From a virus: a stretch of 24,669 bases of DNA. Within the stretch, counting starts at the first letter, position 1; every line of letters begins with the position of its first letter. Made by a program: the position numbers and the translations under genes. The stretch covers positions 1-24,669 of the IMG/VR virus record IMGVR_UViG_3300042392_002062. One strand, given 5' to 3'. This document shows positions 4,506-24,669 of the stretch, piece by piece. Below the pieces are notes generated by a model. The model saw only the letters and a program-made list of their open reading frames with translations, was not told the DNA's origin and ran no database searches.

Positions 4506-5115
4506 GATTACAATCTATTTACAAGGGGAACTTGCAGATTATTTTACCCCACAAATTACCGTTGCTGTATCTAGTGTTGCCGAAGCTATCGCAGCATTAA
4601 AAGCCAACTTCAAAGACTTTGCTAATTACTTGTTTGAAGCGGCTTCGTTTGGGGTAAATTATCAAATCCGGGTAGGGTATCAAGAGATTGGGGAGGAGCA
4701 TCTAAAATGCCCAATTTCCAAAAAAGTCCAATCAATCCGCATTACGCCTATAATTGCTGGGGCTGGTGCGGCTGGCAGGATTATCGCCGGGGTGGCACTG
4801 ATTGGGTTGGCTGTAGCGGCTTCGTTTGGGGTTGTTGGGCTATTGGGAGTAGCGCCGCTGACAGTTGGGCTAACTGGGGGCGCGTTGTTGTTTCAGGGCA
4901 TTTCCGCGCTATTCAGTAGACAAGATTCACCCAGCGGGGATGATAAAAAATCCCTAGTGTTTGGTGGCACGTCAACAACCGTTAAAGAAGGGGGTCGCGT
5001 GCCGATTATTTACGGGGTGGCGTTGGTGGGGATCTACGTTATCAGTGCCAAGATTACAACTTCCTATGTTTCCGGTGGTAGTGGTGGAGGCGGTGGTGGA
5101 GGTGGTGGGAAATAG
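4504..5115 (+). CDS. Tail assembly protein, lambda gpI-like
   Basis: A 203-residue protein. Residues 1-75 have the ubiquitin-like fold pattern of lambda gpI (GELADYFTP, a helix with VAEAIAALKANF, then YQIRVGYQEIGEEHL). Residues 83-135 form a Gly/Ala-rich hydrophobic stretch with IIAGAGAAGRIIAG, typical of the family. Residues 155-180 (GGTSTTVKEGGRVPIIYG) match its conserved end, and the tail is a run of glycines. gpI is required for tail tip assembly together with gpJ. The gene for J follows, but 1.4 kb downstream instead of adjacent. The start overlaps the divergent 95-aa gene, and the region before ATG 4504 has no Shine-Dalgarno. Confidence 0.8.
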   Translation: MITIYLQGELADYFTPQITVAVSSVAEAIAALKANFKDFANYLFEAASFGVNYQIRVGYQEIGEEHLKCPISKKVQSIRITPIIAGAGAAGRIIAGVALIGLAVAASFGVVGLLGVAPLTVGLTGGALLFQGISALFSRQDSPSGDDKKSLVFGGTSTTVKEGGRVPIIYGVALVGIYVISAKITTSYVSGGSGGGGGGGGGK

Positions 5116-17319: not shown

Positions 17320-20300
17320 ATGACTTCCCTTGGTACTCTTGAACTACAGCTAACGGCCAACCAAGCCGCACTATACCAACAATTGAATCAAACCAAGGCT
17401 TACGCCACGCAGGTAGCCAAGGGTATTGAGAAGCAGATAAACCAAGCCTTTGGAAGTGTCGGAGGAAACAGGCTAGGAGGTTTAAACCAAGCAACTGCTC
17501 AAGCTGCGAGTGCCGGACAGGCCGCGGGGAGAACTTTCACGGATAGATTCAAGAACGCAGTTGAGCCGATTAAGGGCATTTTAAGCAATGTCTTTAATGG
17601 TGTTTTTGTTGGGGCTGGGATTGGGGCGTTTAACTCAATTACTGGTGTAGTTGGTTCGGCACTGGGTGCGGTTCAACAATTCGCGGGTGAGATTTTCAAT
17701 GTTACCAAAGACTTCCAAAACTTTGAATCTTCACTAAAAACCTTCCTCAAGGGCAATCAAAAAGAAATTGATGATTTTGTCGGCAAGTTAGAGAAGTTTG
17801 CAGCTACTACACCGTTTGAGCTAAAGGATTTACAGCAAGCAGCAATCCAAAACTTAGCAACCGGTGCAAAACCAGATCAGATTATCAAAGACCTCAAAAC
17901 CATTGGTGATGTCGCCGCAGGTGCTAACGCCAGACTTGGCGACTTGATGGAAGTTTACGCCAAATCACGGACTGAGGGGAAATTACAGAATGAAGACATT
18001 GACCAATTTACGGGGCGCGGGGTGCAGCTTCGGGCTGAACTTGCCAAAATGCTAGGGGCAAAGGAATCTGAAATTAGACAACTGGCCACAGACGGAAAAC
18101 TAGAATTTCGTCACCTTGAGGAAGCTTTACGCCGCATGAGTGCTGAGGGCGGGGCGTATTTTGGGGCAATGGAGAATAAAGCAAAAACTTTAGAAGGTCG
18201 TCTATCCAACGTCCAAGATACTTTTTATCAGTTCCAGAAATCAATCGGCGTGGCATTTGAGCCGATCATGAATTTCATTGTCCAGACATTTGGTGATATT
18301 GTGTCTGGCTTGACATCTTCTAACGGAATCATGAAGGATGTCCGCAAAGAATCTGAGAAATTAGTCGGAACTTTTAAAGCTAATCCGCAGTTGGTTCAAT
18401 CCCTAAATAAAGCTATTCAAGAGTTAGTAGCGGGTGCGTTTAAATTATTATTAGACGGGATAACAAGTTTCACCAAATATTTAGAAACTAACCCGAATAT
18501 TATCAGGGATATGTCTACTGCCTTTAATGATTTTTGGGGAGTAGTTAAAGTCGTTTTTGACGGGTTAAAATTTATTTTTGATGGGATAAATTTAATTGTT
18601 GGTGGTATCCAAGCAGGTGCTAGAGGCGCGGCTGATATTTGGGTTGCCAGTGAACCAACTTTAAATAATATTTGGCAGAAAACCATTGATATATCAAAAG
18701 CGATCGCTGATGGAATTGTTGCGGCATGGAATACCTGTGTAAATTTAGTTAAATCATTGATTAAGTTGATTCAGTCCTTATTTAATGGTGTTGTAAATCT
18801 CACAACTAACGGCATTAATTTGTTGAATGCAGGGCTAAAAACCGCAGTTTCAATTACTCAAGCTATTGGCGAAAATATTGGTAAATGGACATCAAATATT
18901 GGTAGTGCTATTCAAAAAGCTGGGGAATTTGCAAGTCAAGGAATACCGGGAATTGGCAGCGCGTTTCAATTAGCTACCAAGAAGGCTGAGGAATTTTGGA
19001 AATGGGCAACAGGACAAAATCAACAACCAACGACACAGCCGCAAGCACAGCTACAGGCATCGTCACCTAACTCTGGTAATGGTAATAACATAATAGGGAA
19101 CATCGTTCAGGGCGTGCAAGGTTTTTTTGGGTTAGGATCACCCGCGAACCCCAAAAGCAAGGTAATCATGCGCCGCACTGGGCAAAAAGACGAAAACGGG
19201 CTAGAGAAAATAGCCTTGGTAGTTTATGACGATCAAGGACGGGCGATCGCTCAACACACTGTAAATAGCGGTACTCGTCGCACCCAAGGAATGTTCGGGG
19301 CAGGTGGAACTACTCAAAGCGGATCACTAGCACCTGTTGAATATGGCACTTACAATATTGGTGGCGAAGTTGCAGGGATGGGAGCAGGAGTTGGATCAAG
19401 ATTTATTCCTGTAAATCCCACTTTTCGCACTCAACGATCTGCAATTGGTTTTCACTTAGATGCAAACCGACAGACAGCCCCAGGGAGTGCTGGGTGTATT
19501 GTTTTTGCCAACCAACAAGAGTTTGACAGTTTCCGAAATGCTCTCAAGCAAAGTGGCGCAAAACAATTGATTTTTGATGAAGGGAAGGGGCAAGTAGGTA
19601 TTGTGAACGCCGTCGTCGGGACAGAGCTTAATAGCTTTAAGCCTATCCAAGAAGCAGCGAAAAATGCACTACCCACAGGTGCGGGTTTATCGTCTCGCAC
19701 TGCCAATATTGTGCGTGGTAAGAATGAGGAGATTTTCGGTAAAGCTGGCTTGACAGATAGCTTAGTTGCGCTAGTTAAAAAATCAGAAGGTTTTGCAGCA
19801 ACACCATACTTTGATCGAACTCAATACTCGGTTGGTTTTGGGACTAAGGCTAAATCATCAGGCGAGCGCTTAACAGTTGAAGAAGCAAACCAACGGCTAT
19901 TAAATGAGCTACTTTACAAACGTTCTCGCGTTCAGAAAATGGTCAAAGTCCCCATCAACAATAATCAATTGGATGCTTTGACCTCGTTCGCTTTTAACGT
20001 GGGTGAAGGGGCATTAGGAGAAAGTACCCTACTCAAAAAACTAAACTCTGGAGATTATGCAGGTGCGGCTAAAGAGTTTCTGAGGTGGAATAAAGGTAAA
20101 CATCGCGGAGTTAAACAAGCATTGCCAGGATTAACCAAGCGGCGTAACTCTGAGATGCAATTATTTCTGAGCCAGTCAAATACTACACCTGCTCAACAAG
20201 CAGCTATTGGAGAACGGAGAACGGGGAACGGGGAATTAGCGCAAACCCCAGGTGTCGCTCAAGGTGGCAATGCCGGAGATCAACGGAATTTATTAGCAGC

Positions 20301-22431
20301 ACGGCGTAAACTTGCAGAAACCAAATATCGAGAAATTAAAGATGAGATTGACGCGGCTACTAAACAGGCTGATAACGCTCAAAAACAGCAGCGAGAATTA
20401 GATGCTAAAAAACGTGATCAACTAGACAAAGAAAAACGGGCTGAGTTTGCAGCTTACGAGGCTTTAGCCCCAGATGATGAAGCTAAAAAGATTATTCAGA
20501 AACGCGCCAAACAATACGAGATTGATCTACGTTATCAGGAGAATTTGATCAAATTTTCTCAGGAACGCGAGGATCTTCTTGATGCCAGAAATAAGAAATT
20601 AAAGATTTTGGCAGAGGCTAAAAAGCGTGGTGAAACTGTTACGCCGGATGATGCTGGCGTGGATTACTCCAAAGCAATTAATCAGTTAGATGAAATCATC
20701 AAATCTCAGAAACAGTTGCGAGACTTGGAGTTAGAAACCAATAATTTAAACCAGTCCAGTGCAGAAAAAGAAATCGAGAAGAACAAGGATCGTCAGCGAG
20801 AAATTGAAAAGTTATCTCGCGTCCATGAAGCGTACATTAATCAGTTGAAATTGCAGCAATCATTAGTTGGCGATGATGCGACAAAACAGGGTATCCAATT
20901 AACAATTGATAAGGCGCAGATTGAATACAGTGCTAAGGCCGCATTAATGCCACTGCAAAATCAACTTTATGATTTACAGGATCGGAAAGTTTATTTGTTG
21001 GGTGAGGGGGGATTGAAAAAAGATTCTGAGGAAGTCAAGCGGCTTCAGAAAGATATTAATAATTTAGTTGCTCAAATTCATTCAATTGCCAATAAGGGTG
21101 GCGTGGATTTAAAACTATTTGAGAATCAGCGTAAACAAATTGAGTTGCAAAATCAACGGCTAAGGGAGTCGGAAAAACAGGAAATTGAACACAACAAACA
21201 AGTTCTTGAGCTTAATAAAGAAATTTCTACCGCACGGACTCAACAACAAAAAGCTGAGTTACAGTTTCAATTAGATAAAATAAACGCAATTCAACAAGAA
21301 AAGCAGGTGTTAACCACTCTCAAGCAGGAATATGATGATTTAACCCAAGGACGCGAGAAATTAATCAATGAAGGCAAACTAGACGCTGCTAGTGATGTAA
21401 TTAAAGTTTTAGACGGTAAGATTGCTGACTTAAACGAAAAAATTAAAATATTGGGCGAACAGTCAAAATCAAGTTTTGAAACCCTTACCAGAGAAGGACA
21501 AAAAACCATTGAACAAGGCAGGTTTGCGGATCTAGAATCTGCGCTTTCTAAAGAAGCATCAATGTTACCAGCACAAACTGGTTTAATTCGCAGACGTGGT
21601 GGCAATGAATATGAAGTCTCCGCATTAGAAGCTGAAGCCGCAAGAATGGAGGAACAATTTAGATATAAACAAGAATTACTACAAATTGAACAACAAATAG
21701 CCGCCGCGAAAGGAAAAGCCAACGAGTACACAGAGCAAGAAATAGCTGCACTACAAGCCAATGCCGAAGCAATTAACAAGATTAATTTAGAGGGTATTTC
21801 TCAACAAGTGAAAACACTCGGCAAAGACTTATTAGATGTTGGTAAAAACGCCCTCGGTTCATTCTTTGGTGACATCATTTCTGGGTCTAAATCTGCGGGG
21901 GATGCCTTCAAAGACCTGATCGGAAGCATCGCCCAACAATTAACCCAATTGGCGGTTAACTCCCTTATTTCTAGTATCTTTGGTGGAGGTGGTGGTTTGT
22001 TCGGCGGTGGAGGCGGTAAAGGCGGTGGGATACTGGGATTTAGTGAAGGATATGTCCCCAATTACGCCACAGGAAATAGTAACCCCATATCAGAAGCACT
22101 AAACCGCGAGAGGGTTCAGTCAGGGGGCAGGAAAGCAATACTGGGCGTGTTTAATGAAGATGAGATGATATTGACCGCAGAACAATCTAAGCGTTTTCAA
22201 GAACTGCGATTAGACAAAATATTGAATTTTGCGAATGGTGGTATTGTCGGAGGTGGTCAAAATTTAAGTAATGAAATCGGGTCTAAAAACATGAACATAA
22301 ATATCCCCGTCACTGTAGAGGGCGGCGGGGATAGCTCGGTCAATGTTCCACAATTGCAAAATTCTCTAAGATCAGTTGTGTTGGCGGAAATTCAGAAACA
22401 ACAGCGTCCGGGCGGGGCGTTGAATAGGTAA
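17320..22431 (+). CDS. Tail tape measure protein with embedded YkuD-like and GH24 lysozyme domains
   Basis: A 1703-residue protein. Residues about 128-320 form the tape measure N-terminal domain (FESSLKTFL, FAATTPFELKDLQQAAIQ, GRGVQLRAELAKML, FQKSIGVAF). Hydrophobic stretches lie near 85-126 and 405-450. Residues about 612-757 resemble an L,D-transpeptidase (YkuD) type domain: His712 in GFHLD and PGSAGCIVF with Cys726. Residues about 806-955 are a GH24 lysozyme-like domain: Glu823 (KKSEGF), Asp832 (YFDRTQ), Ser837 where most members have Thr, and the closing GLTKRRNSEMQLFL. Long coiled coils follow (about 980-1480), then a Gly-rich segment near 1552-1570 and GYVPNYATG. It sets tail length and probably delivers wall-cutting activity during DNA entry. 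The stop abuts the convergent gene at 22432. Confidence 0.9.
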   Translation: MTSLGTLELQLTANQAALYQQLNQTKAYATQVAKGIEKQINQAFGSVGGNRLGGLNQATAQAASAGQAAGRTFTDRFKNAVEPIKGILSNVFNGVFVGAGIGAFNSITGVVGSALGAVQQFAGEIFNVTKDFQNFESSLKTFLKGNQKEIDDFVGKLEKFAATTPFELKDLQQAAIQNLATGAKPDQIIKDLKTIGDVAAGANARLGDLMEVYAKSRTEGKLQNEDIDQFTGRGVQLRAELAKMLGAKESEIRQLATDGKLEFRHLEEALRRMSAEGGAYFGAMENKAKTLEGRLSNVQDTFYQFQKSIGVAFEPIMNFIVQTFGDIVSGLTSSNGIMKDVRKESEKLVGTFKANPQLVQSLNKAIQELVAGAFKLLLDGITSFTKYLETNPNIIRDMSTAFNDFWGVVKVVFDGLKFIFDGINLIVGGIQAGARGAADIWVASEPTLNNIWQKTIDISKAIADGIVAAWNTCVNLVKSLIKLIQSLFNGVVNLTTNGINLLNAGLKTAVSITQAIGENIGKWTSNIGSAIQKAGEFASQGIPGIGSAFQLATKKAEEFWKWATGQNQQPTTQPQAQLQASSPNSGNGNNIIGNIVQGVQGFFGLGSPANPKSKVIMRRTGQKDENGLEKIALVVYDDQGRAIAQHTVNSGTRRTQGMFGAGGTTQSGSLAPVEYGTYNIGGEVAGMGAGVGSRFIPVNPTFRTQRSAIGFHLDANRQTAPGSAGCIVFANQQEFDSFRNALKQSGAKQLIFDEGKGQVGIVNAVVGTELNSFKPIQEAAKNALPTGAGLSSRTANIVRGKNEEIFGKAGLTDSLVALVKKSEGFAATPYFDRTQYSVGFGTKAKSSGERLTVEEANQRLLNELLYKRSRVQKMVKVPINNNQLDALTSFAFNVGEGALGESTLLKKLNSGDYAGAAKEFLRWNKGKHRGVKQALPGLTKRRNSEMQLFLSQSNTTPAQQAAIGERRTGNGELAQTPGVAQGGNAGDQRNLLAARRKLAETKYREIKDEIDAATKQADNAQKQQRELDAKKRDQLDKEKRAEFAAYEALAPDDEAKKIIQKRAKQYEIDLRYQENLIKFSQEREDLLDARNKKLKILAEAKKRGETVTPDDAGVDYSKAINQLDEIIKSQKQLRDLELETNNLNQSSAEKEIEKNKDRQREIEKLSRVHEAYINQLKLQQSLVGDDATKQGIQLTIDKAQIEYSAKAALMPLQNQLYDLQDRKVYLLGEGGLKKDSEEVKRLQKDINNLVAQIHSIANKGGVDLKLFENQRKQIELQNQRLRESEKQEIEHNKQVLELNKEISTARTQQQKAELQFQLDKINAIQQEKQVLTTLKQEYDDLTQGREKLINEGKLDAASDVIKVLDGKIADLNEKIKILGEQSKSSFETLTREGQKTIEQGRFADLESALSKEASMLPAQTGLIRRRGGNEYEVSALEAEAARMEEQFRYKQELLQIEQQIAAAKGKANEYTEQEIAALQANAEAINKINLEGISQQVKTLGKDLLDVGKNALGSFFGDIISGSKSAGDAFKDLIGSIAQQLTQLAVNSLISSIFGGGGGLFGGGGGKGGGILGFSEGYVPNYATGNSNPISEALNRERVQSGGRKAILGVFNEDEMILTAEQSKRFQELRLDKILNFANGGIVGGGQNLSNEIGSKNMNINIPVTVEGGGDSSVNVPQLQNSLRSVVLAEIQKQQRPGGALNR
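20209..20236 (+). repeat. Four tandem 7-bp repeats inside the tape measure gene
   Basis: GGAGAAC, GGAGAAC, GGGGAAC and GGGGAAT in a row at 20209-20236. Such heptamer runs resemble the short tandemly repeated sequences scattered in filamentous cyanobacterial genomes. Here they are translated as ERRTGNGE-type residues in the linker just after the GH24 domain. Confidence 0.7.
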
Positions 22432-23237: not shown

Positions 23238-23269
23238 AAAAGACAGGGTATCTAAGTACCCTGTCTTTT
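23238..23269 (-). terminator. Intrinsic terminator of the minus-strand ribozyme operon
   Basis: AAAAGACAGGGTA (23238-23250) and TACCCTGTCTTTT (23257-23269) form a perfect 13-bp stem with a 6-nt loop. It starts 5 bp beyond the stop of the minus-strand 143-aa gene, with TTTT at the end of the stem on that strand. Confidence 0.75.
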
Positions 23270-23274
23270 AAAAA

Positions 23275-23706
23275 TTATGAATTGTGCAACGCCGATCTCT
23301 CGGCGTGTTTCTGTTCAATGGTAGGTGAAACACCTACCCACTGCTCTTTGTCTATTATTATTCTCTTTATCCGCACCAGTCCAGTGTAGGAGAAAATCGG
23401 TTCTCCGTCAACCACTTCCCGTGTGGTCTGGGGGATAAGGAAGGTCCTTATCCCCGCGTTAAGCCAGTCTATTTGGAGGTTTAGTGGTGCAACTGCTACC
23501 ACTATTGAGTCAGCCGAGATCGTATGGCATACTATCTCTTGAACGCTATCTGTGTCTTGAGCAAGAATTATCTCGCTGAATGTGATAGTGTCGCCAGTGC
23601 GGCGAATATCTTTGATCGTCCCTCTAACCTGGTTTATAGCACCACCCCCCAGGTCTTCGACCATTTTAGGGTCTATTTTGTGCCGACTGAAAAAATAAAC
23701 ACTCAT
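23275..23706 (-). CDS. Unknown 143-aa 'FFSRH' protein
   Basis: AGGAG lies about 6 nt before ATG 23706. The protein opens with MSVYFFSRHKIDPKMVEDLG, continues with a beta-rich part (GTIKDIRRTGDTITFSEIILA), then ADSIVVAVAPLNLQIDWLNAGIRTFLIP, and ends in a charged tail. The opening strand plus SRH and a following helix recall small Rossmann-like proteins such as the Csx15/16/20 ring-nuclease families, but similarity is limited to that motif, so this is only a hint. It is the last gene of the minus-strand operon, preceded by a 14-bp hairpin and followed by a terminator. Confidence 0.7.
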   Translation of the reverse strand: MSVYFFSRHKIDPKMVEDLGGGAINQVRGTIKDIRRTGDTITFSEIILAQDTDSVQEIVCHTISADSIVVAVAPLNLQIDWLNAGIRTFLIPQTTREVVDGEPIFSYTGLVRIKRIIIDKEQWVGVSPTIEQKHAERSALHNS

Positions 23707-23805: not shown

Positions 23806-24168
23806 CTAACCCCACTCTAAAAACTCTATTTTCATCTTTACAGATTGCTTGAACAGTCTGTAGTCAAACTTAGATGACAGCATCAGGTTCGATTCATAGG
23901 GCTTTATGCCTTTACACCAACTAACAGATATGTGAGGATATTTGTTAGCGCAGGGAATATGATCAGGAAGTTTGACAGCTACAGCTTGTATTTTGCCGTT
24001 CCAAGCTTCATATAAAGTTGTGGCTTGGAACTCTTCGCCTATCCAGTGTGTCCAGTTTTCCCGATGCACCCCAAACTGAAGGGTTATATGGCGGGGACTC
24101 CCAACGGGGTAGCGTTGGGGAATTAATAGGGGTGTCTGGATGACAGCCCACAAAATTCCTTTAGTCAC
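23806..24168 (-). CDS. 2H phosphoesterase-like protein
   Basis: The 120-residue protein has two H-x-[T/S]-hydrophobic motifs about 50 residues apart: His27-Ile-Thr29 in SPRHITLQFGV and His79-Ile-Ser81 in NKYPHISVSW. The second is followed by GIKPYESN, a context seen in LigT / tRNA-ligase-type and phage 2H enzymes. This superfamily cleaves 2',3'-cyclic phosphates or 2'-5' bonds, and one phage branch (Acb1, T4 gp57B) degrades CBASS cyclic nucleotides. Which substrate applies here is unknown. It starts with GTG 24168, overlapping the upstream gene by 8 bp, so it is translationally coupled. It is short for the superfamily but contains both motifs and the strand between them (GKIQAVAVKL). Confidence 0.7.
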   Translation of the reverse strand: MTKGILWAVIQTPLLIPQRYPVGSPRHITLQFGVHRENWTHWIGEEFQATTLYEAWNGKIQAVAVKLPDHIPCANKYPHISVSWCKGIKPYESNLMLSSKFDYRLFKQSVKMKIEFLEWG

Positions 24169-24523
24169 CTAAAGAAACCAGTGAATAAATAATATCCGCT
24201 TTTATGTCCTCCGTCTGTTGCTCCAGTGGCAACCCTACCAACTCTGAATCAAGCAGACTAACCCTAACACCGACTTTGAACAACTTGATCAAGGTCAGTC
24301 CACCTACCGAATCAGCGATTATGTGGTCGCCTTTATTTAGGATGATTTTAACCTCTTTCACGAGGTCTTTATCGTCGTAGCAGTGTTCAAATTCCTCAAC
24401 TACGAGGACACCTTCCCTGATATAGAAATAAAAGGTGTTACCTTGACTTTCCCTCTCGTAGGAAAAGTCGGGATTAATCCCTAACTTCTGGTTAAATTCC
24501 TGACTTAAAAACGAGTAGATCAT
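24161..24523 (-). CDS. Unknown 120-aa protein directly downstream of a hammerhead ribozyme
   Basis: ATG 24523 (MIYSFLSQEFNQKLG) is preceded at 24536-24531 by AGAGGA, a strong Shine-Dalgarno with 7-nt spacing. The GTG at 24562 is an alternative in-frame start but is exactly the first base after the predicted ribozyme cut and has no Shine-Dalgarno. The product is a small acidic alpha/beta protein (NTFYFYIREGVLVVEEFEH, IILNKGDHIIADSVGGLTLI). I do not recognise the family. It overlaps the 2H phosphoesterase-like gene by 8 bp, so both are coupled. Confidence 0.65.
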   Translation of the reverse strand: MIYSFLSQEFNQKLGINPDFSYERESQGNTFYFYIREGVLVVEEFEHCYDDKDLVKEVKIILNKGDHIIADSVGGLTLIKLFKVGVRVSLLDSELVGLPLEQQTEDIKADIIYSLVSLGD

Positions 24524-24537
24524 GTTTATTTCCTCTT

Positions 24538-24562
24538 GTGGGGTGAAATTGTGACTTCCCAC
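24538..24562 (-). other. Alternative hairpin at the new 5' end after ribozyme cleavage
   Basis: GTGGG (24562-24558), the 3' strand of stem I, can also pair with CCCAC (24542-24538). After cleavage this would make a 5-bp hairpin at the exact 5' terminus of the downstream mRNA, ending just before AGAGGA. It competes with stem I and could make cleavage irreversible or protect the 5' end. Confidence 0.4.
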
Positions 24563-24613
24563 GACTACCAGGTGGTAGTTTCGTCCGGTAGTCAGCCGGA
24601 CTCGTCAGGCGGG
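24558..24613 (-). ncRNA. Type I hammerhead ribozyme
   Basis: All elements are in order on the minus strand: stem I 5' side CCCGC (24613-24609); core CTGACGA (24608-24602, CUGANGA consensus); stem II GTCCGG (24601-24596) with CCGGAC (24588-24583) and a 7-nt loop; core GAAA (24582-24579); stem III ACTACC (24579-24574) with GGTAGT (24569-24564) and an ACCT loop; cleavage base C17 at 24563 in a GUC triplet; stem I 3' side GTGGG (24562-24558), five pairs including one G-U. The outer ends leave from stem I, hence type I. Cleavage is predicted between 24563 and 24562, 39 nt upstream of ATG 24523. Confidence 0.9.
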
Positions 24614-24617
24614 CTAT

Positions 24618-24668
24618 TCAAACTTTATGCCCCTCTCTTGACTCTTGTTTGAGCCACTTCTCAAAGGG
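24618..24668 (-). CDS. C-terminal end of an upstream gene in the same operon (partial)
   Basis: Reading the minus strand inward from 24668 gives 16 codons (PFEKWLKQESREGHKV) ending at TGA 24620-24618, only 4 bp before ribozyme stem I. The charged composition looks coding. The gene continues beyond the right edge, so its identity is unknown. Confidence 0.4.
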   Translation of the reverse strand, partial: PFEKWLKQESREGHKV

Positions 24669-24669
24669 C

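Follow-up and report, generated by a model that had tools for sequence, protein, structure and literature searches.

The window, the whole stretch of 24,669 nucleotides analysed here, holds on its minus strand a candidate self-cleaving RNA between two phage genes. This raises the question of whether the element is a genuine hammerhead ribozyme and of what its cleavage would do to an mRNA spanning both genes. What hammerheads do in bacteria and phages is still an open question (PMC6155905).

Structure of the element and its Rfam score

Both strands were searched for structured hammerheads (stem I of at least 4 bp, stems II and III of at least 3 bp each, the A15.1-U16.1 pair and H17). One was found, with 17 canonical or G-U pairs (Table 1), and 400 dinucleotide-preserving shuffles, also searched on both strands, gave a single weak hammerhead of 11 pairs and none above 11. 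The core is complete (C3 U4 G5 A6 C7 G8 A9, G12 A13 A14, A15.1-U16.1 and C17) and agrees with the type I core (CUGANGA, GAA, A15.1-U16.1, H17 other than G). Stems II and III are closed by loops and stem I is open, both in the MFE fold and in the family alignment; the MFE structure computed for the 56 nt (-22.3 kcal/mol, z -2.39) coincides exactly with the three-stem hammerhead. Taken together, the sequence features support a type I hammerhead, complete in all its parts, lying between two phage genes that run in the same direction. The initial annotation had proposed this, on the minus strand between the stop codon of the upstream gene (24620-24618) and the Shine-Dalgarno and ATG of the downstream gene, with 39 nt from the cut to the ATG at 24523, and its coordinates were confirmed; it had recorded neither the loop II pseudoknot strand (24556-24552) nor the conserved CCCAC (24542-24538). 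An intrinsic terminator and a sigma-70 promoter were looked for at the hammerhead and none was found; two terminator-like sites lie inside gene B on the opposite strand.

Table 1. Features of the hammerhead locus in the window. Letters of the ribozyme segments were read directly, 5' to 3' on the minus strand (24613-24558).
Feature	Position	Strand	Description or evidence
Gene A, 3' end	24618-24669	(-)	upstream gene; ends ...KPFEKWLKQESREGHKV and stop; cut by window end
Type I hammerhead ribozyme	24558-24613	(-)	sequence, fold, covariation, shuffles, leave-out model
Stem I	24613-24609/24562-24558	(-)	CCCGC/GUGGG
Core	24608-24602	(-)	CUGACGA
Stem II	24601-24596/24588-24583	(-)	GUCCGG/CCGGAC
Loop II	24595-24589	(-)	CUGACUA
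GAA	24582-24580	(-)	GAA
Stem III	24579-24574/24569-24564	(-)	ACUACC/GGUAGU, closed by ACCU
H17	24563	(-)	C; predicted cleavage between 24563 and 24562
Pseudoknot strand AGUCA	24552-24556	(-)	partner of loop II UGACU (24594-24590); 5 bp complementarity, two-sided changes
Capture strand CCCAC	24538-24542	(-)	complement of GUGGG (24562-24558), with which the downstream product starts
Shine-Dalgarno and ATG	24521-24536	(-)	AGAGGAAA (24536-24529), ATG (24523-24521) of the downstream gene
Gene B	24161-24523	(-)	downstream gene, 120 aa, MIYSFL... family
Probable 2H-type phosphoesterase	23806-24168	(-)	next operon gene, 120 aa; HITL and HISV motifs, PF08302
Last operon gene	23275-23706	(-)	143 aa
13-bp inverted repeat	23238-23269	(-)	AAAAGACAGGGTA-CTTAGA-TACCCTGTCTTTT, direct read

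A score below the Rfam threshold had been named beforehand as grounds for rejecting the hammerhead, and such a score was obtained. The RF00163 model aligns end to end with the element and gives it 23.1 bits (an E of 0.0018 in 270 nt). The gathering score, which is a curators' cut-off and not a structural definition, is 34, and at this threshold the window hammerhead yields no match. This miss was not accepted as a refutation because no match in 12 phage records with hammerheads reaches 34, and these records include contigs with up to eight complete hammerheads in the fetched stretches. The cut-off is uninformative here for phage hammerheads, and phage ribozymes of this kind are hidden by it. 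When a covariance model was trained on 15 relatives from other phages, leaving out the window and its near-identical copy, it scored the window at 79.8 bits (E = 1.1e-17) and also recovered both copies of phage CL131 (see below). Despite the Rfam score, the sequence data support the earlier reading in substance. As a separate observation, complete type I hammerheads number five to eight in each of the contigs L017, L053 and L100, many of them sitting immediately before a gene start, and at least 120 stretches in IMG/VR match one narrow hammerhead pattern.

Family, covariation and gene context

Relatives of the element were retrieved from 17 IMG/VR records by a pattern scan and model R1 (one of them, L045, is a weak match with E = 2e-6) and from a cultured phage of Aphanizomenon, vB_AphaS-CL131 (MG209611). 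Two copies lie on the minus strand of CL131: the one at 105158-105232 is canonical, and the one at 98366-98441 is damaged, having a mismatch in stem I. Neither is annotated in MG209611, and the genome paper does not mention hammerheads or ribozymes (PMC6293099). A scan of bacterial genome contigs with the family pattern gave 37 matches, none convincing under model R1 (best E = 0.12). Because of CL131 and the shared gene module, the host of the window is probably a cyanobacterium. Contig L004, near-identical to the window (99.4%), carries the same element; L003, 78% identical in the region, keeps it, with GGACGG/CCGUCC in place of GUCCGG/CCGGAC as stem II; in L127, four successive gene boundaries have one copy each.

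In the alignment of 18 members, standard pairs fill 97.2% of pair cells, two-sided changes occur at nine pairs (3.7 in shuffles) and pairing drops to 23-55% in slid registers. Compensatory changes are found in stems II and III, and stem I is paired in 18 of 18 members. An extra U follows A9 in seven of the 19 members with a GUGGG product end, which was counted against the main explanation. Such a U between A9 and stem II (CUGAYGAU) was seen in L003, L029, L117, L128, L140, L150, L151 and L160; judged by sequence, it is a recurrent core insertion in many phage hammerheads.

Loop II of the family, CUGACUA or CUGGCUA, is complementary to the strand just beyond stem I, AAGUCA or AAGCCA, giving the two-sided variants UGACU/AGUCA and UGGCU/AGCCA. 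Considered alone, this pseudoknot helix is 87.8% paired (19-57% when slid), with two-sided changes at two pairs; one of its shuffle controls was no more than moderately strong (78/500 for pair counts). Such pseudoknots were found in about 40% of the hammerheads of an earlier study, in which disrupting one strongly slowed cleavage (Perreault 2011, PMC3088659).

Gene A is 383 aa long in L004. Homologues of gene B lie directly 3' of hammerheads in relatives too; gene B had no match in Pfam, PHROGs or PADLOC, and a fold search gave weak, mixed matches (NifX/NafY-like and others). The product of the next gene is a probable 2H phosphoesterase and a possible RNA-end enzyme: it matches Pfam tRNA_lig_CPD (PF08302) above the cut-off (E = 1.4e-7), and the His and T/S residues of its HITL and HISV motifs are invariant in four phages. 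Its fold model is of low confidence (pLDDT 67), with weak matches to CNPase; a match from the PDB sequence search was dismissed as chance, and a search for relatives in bacterial genomes returned none. The 143-aa gene keeps its synteny in L041, L125 and L127. The inverted repeat behind it is likely, from its sequence, to be a transcription terminator and would form the 3' end of the cleaved mRNA.

Hammerheads also stand directly before a Shine-Dalgarno and ATG in relatives, with different downstream genes. Exceptions among the 19 members are two whose next start codon lies over 100 nt beyond the cut and one for which no start codon was found. Of 147 phage hammerheads, 87 have a Shine-Dalgarno and start no further than 70 nt from the cut, versus 38 in shuffles (maximum 50). 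Five small gene families are shuffled around the hammerheads, in the orders A to B, A to C, B to C, C to B, C to D, E to B and E to D, and many of the boundaries hold one.

Several further observations were made in these contigs. Beyond the other side of gene A, L004 has a truncated hammerhead duplicate (4670-4755; 73 nt repeat, 97% identical), which stops in loop III and is followed by an 8-bp hairpin. Because this 3'-truncated copy flanks the other side of gene A, it suggests that the gene arrived or was duplicated together with the repeat. At 23806-23811 of the window, similarity to L004 ends abruptly with the phosphoesterase gene, and L004 continues into an FGE-sulfatase-like gene; this is either a module junction or an assembly join. 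A second short, conserved intergenic element, GACCUAAGCACGUC(A/G)NUAAACUGCU, lies at 5175-5199 of L003 and also occurs in L099 (8228), L134, L139, L148, L150, L151 and L160; in these phages it precedes gene E and several other genes. Its sequence would allow an H-type pseudoknot (GAC/GUC plus AGCA/UGCU). It was also considered as a known ribozyme or riboswitch of gene E and, having no Rfam match, rejected. Elsewhere in the window, a complete lysozyme domain of phage type (PF00959) is embedded midway in the tape measure protein (17320-22431 on the plus strand, 1703 aa).

The CCCAC strand downstream of the predicted cut

CCCAC is present in all 19 family members whose product begins with GUGGG. 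It starts at product nt 16-26, usually immediately 5' of the Shine-Dalgarno, and the intervening sequence and its length vary among the members. In the predicted fold of the window product, the first five nt pair with CCCAC with a probability of about 0.99 and the Shine-Dalgarno is mostly unpaired, except for two A's. In the MFE fold of the uncleaved 141-nt RNA, GUGGG likewise pairs with CCCAC, not with the CCCGC of stem I. CCCAC competes with the 5' strand of stem I in the uncleaved RNA; it therefore matters which pairing forms first, and the strand may act as a brake. GUGGG and CCCAC never vary within the family and the capture hairpin has no covariation there; its support comes from conservation and from other families.

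Outside the family, helices of 4 bp or more joining the product 5' end to positions +3 to +20 past stem I were counted in 81 phage hammerheads, one per locus, with swapped partners as control. They numbered 26.4 versus 9.2 in the control (maximum 17 in 200 draws), and an upstream control gave no excess (13.0 versus 12.5). The enrichment was first calculated on all copies and then redone with one copy per locus; this and the upstream control were used since copies repeated in one contig do not count as independent. The enrichment is moderate: the helices are mostly of 4 bp, and at 5 bp or more the excess was small (6.3 versus 2.0). Part of the signal at +3 to +12 could reflect overlapping pseudoknot strands. 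These sequence comparisons indicate that capture pairing outside the family is a clear tendency, not universal and weak at 5 bp or more.

Proposed processing of the operon mRNA and its alternatives

On balance, a pseudoknot-stabilised type I hammerhead probably cuts the operon mRNA here, and the freed 5' end would be captured in a hairpin with CCCAC. Following hammerhead chemistry, the cut would separate gene A from an mRNA for gene B, the 2H phosphoesterase and the 143-aa protein, and this downstream mRNA would receive a defined 39-nt leader with a 5'-OH. GUGGG would then pair with CCCAC across a 15-nt loop, forming a 5'-terminal hairpin immediately 5' of the Shine-Dalgarno. Such a hairpin would make cleavage irreversible by preventing religation and may protect the 5' end against 5'-end-dependent RNases, slowing decay, and the ribosome site beside it would stay open. 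The upstream fragment would retain stems II and III, so that its 3' end, carrying a 2',3'-cyclic phosphate, would be structured.

The same pairing can be read in another way. Since GUGGG pairs with CCCAC in the MFE fold of the uncleaved RNA instead of with CCCGC, the strand could equally restrain cleavage: CCCAC duplicates the 5' strand of stem I and the two pairings are mutually exclusive, as would suit a brake or switch that dissolves stem I and leaves part of the operon mRNA uncut, with cleavage depending on how fast transcription runs, on translation of gene A or on a bound factor. We consider this unlikely, as the pseudoknot strand is transcribed earlier than CCCAC, so that the active fold should be locked before CCCAC appears, RNAfold cannot score the pseudoknot, and the loops have no conserved feature resembling a ligand site. 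That the element is a look-alike or a relic without a relevant cleavage rate is highly improbable. Its Rfam score lies under the gathering cut-off and decayed copies exist (L004:4701, with GAC and a broken stem I, and CL131 98366-98441), but every invariant core base is present along with the 17 pairs, 0 of 400 shuffles come near it and the relatives covary.

Two other explanations concern the surroundings of the element. The near-identical 75-nt intergenic repeats may mainly be module boundaries, providing homology for recombination by which small phage genes are shuffled, with self-cleavage incidental or harmless; the variable gene order around them, the second copy flanking gene A in L004 and the exact end of window/L004 similarity at the phosphoesterase gene would all fit. 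Recombination homology by itself would not covary, however, and the compensatory changes in stems and pseudoknot and the conserved catalytic bases need selection on RNA structure, which makes this explanation unlikely as the main one; module boundaries and RNA processing are compatible ideas. The phosphoesterase two genes downstream is suggestive because hammerheads leave 2',3'-cyclic phosphates, and cleavage ends could be fed to phage RNA repair including this enzyme, yielding ligated, circular or end-healed RNAs. CL131 combines two family hammerheads with the phosphoesterase and an annotated polynucleotide kinase/phosphatase. Yet most family contigs, many of them fragments, have no phosphoesterase near the hammerhead, enzymes of this type also act in tRNA repair or in the destruction of nucleotide signals, the fold model is poor, and spliced or circular products of clustered hammerheads were sought and none was seen (Perreault 2011, PMC3088659). 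As the gene lies near the hammerhead in some relatives only, a functional link is very unlikely.

Cleavage of the operon mRNA followed by capture of the new 5' end, the reading favoured here, has several known counterparts. The initial annotation was right that hammerheads are known in phages, and such arrangements have been published: clustered phage and prophage hammerheads cleaved in vitro, and one cluster also did so in E. coli (Perreault 2011, PMC3088659). These clusters (RF00163) share with the present family the core, three stems with an open stem I, H17 and the loop II pseudoknot, and in prophages several copies flank single genes. By contrast, the present family is lineage-specific, occurs in cyanophage-like contigs, has a conserved downstream strand complementary to the product, lies below the Rfam cut-off and is unannotated in CL131. 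HHphage of haloviruses HF1/HF2 also lies a few nt (13) before a phage gene start, but is a structural variant ahead of a helicase gene in viruses of halophilic archaea (Perreault 2011). RiboJ is a synthetic insulator in which the sTRSV hammerhead is joined to a 23-nt hairpin; in E. coli it increases protein levels two- to tenfold and mRNA levels about twofold (PMC6206723). By analogy the window element is much like it in layout, with a hammerhead, a (here predicted) hairpin at the new 5' end kept on the mRNA and then the ribosome site. RiboJ is engineered, follows a promoter and has an appended hairpin, whereas the window element lies between genes and its hairpin would use the 3' strand of stem I, so that forming the ribozyme excludes the hairpin and the reverse. 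In bacterial mRNAs, glmS ribozyme leaders likewise cleave themselves and leave a downstream mRNA with a 5'-OH, as is proposed here; glmS is another ribozyme, depends on a ligand and lowers expression.

The window element is a hammerhead of a kind already known in phages, and what sets it apart is the conserved capture strand, of which the open-access papers covered by the search give no description. We tentatively propose that phages widely use hammerheads with a capture strand as per-gene mRNA processors: the product 5' end would refold with its leader into a terminal hairpin, which would make cleavage irreversible and standardise leaders, a natural counterpart of RiboJ. If true, this would give prokaryotic hammerheads a testable function. 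Ribozyme, conserved capture strand and ribosome binding site form one 75-nt unit repeated at gene boundaries; since the unit links these three parts, the idea of processing and insulation could be tested with a few point mutants, for which CL131 and Aphanizomenon provide a cultured phage-host pair.
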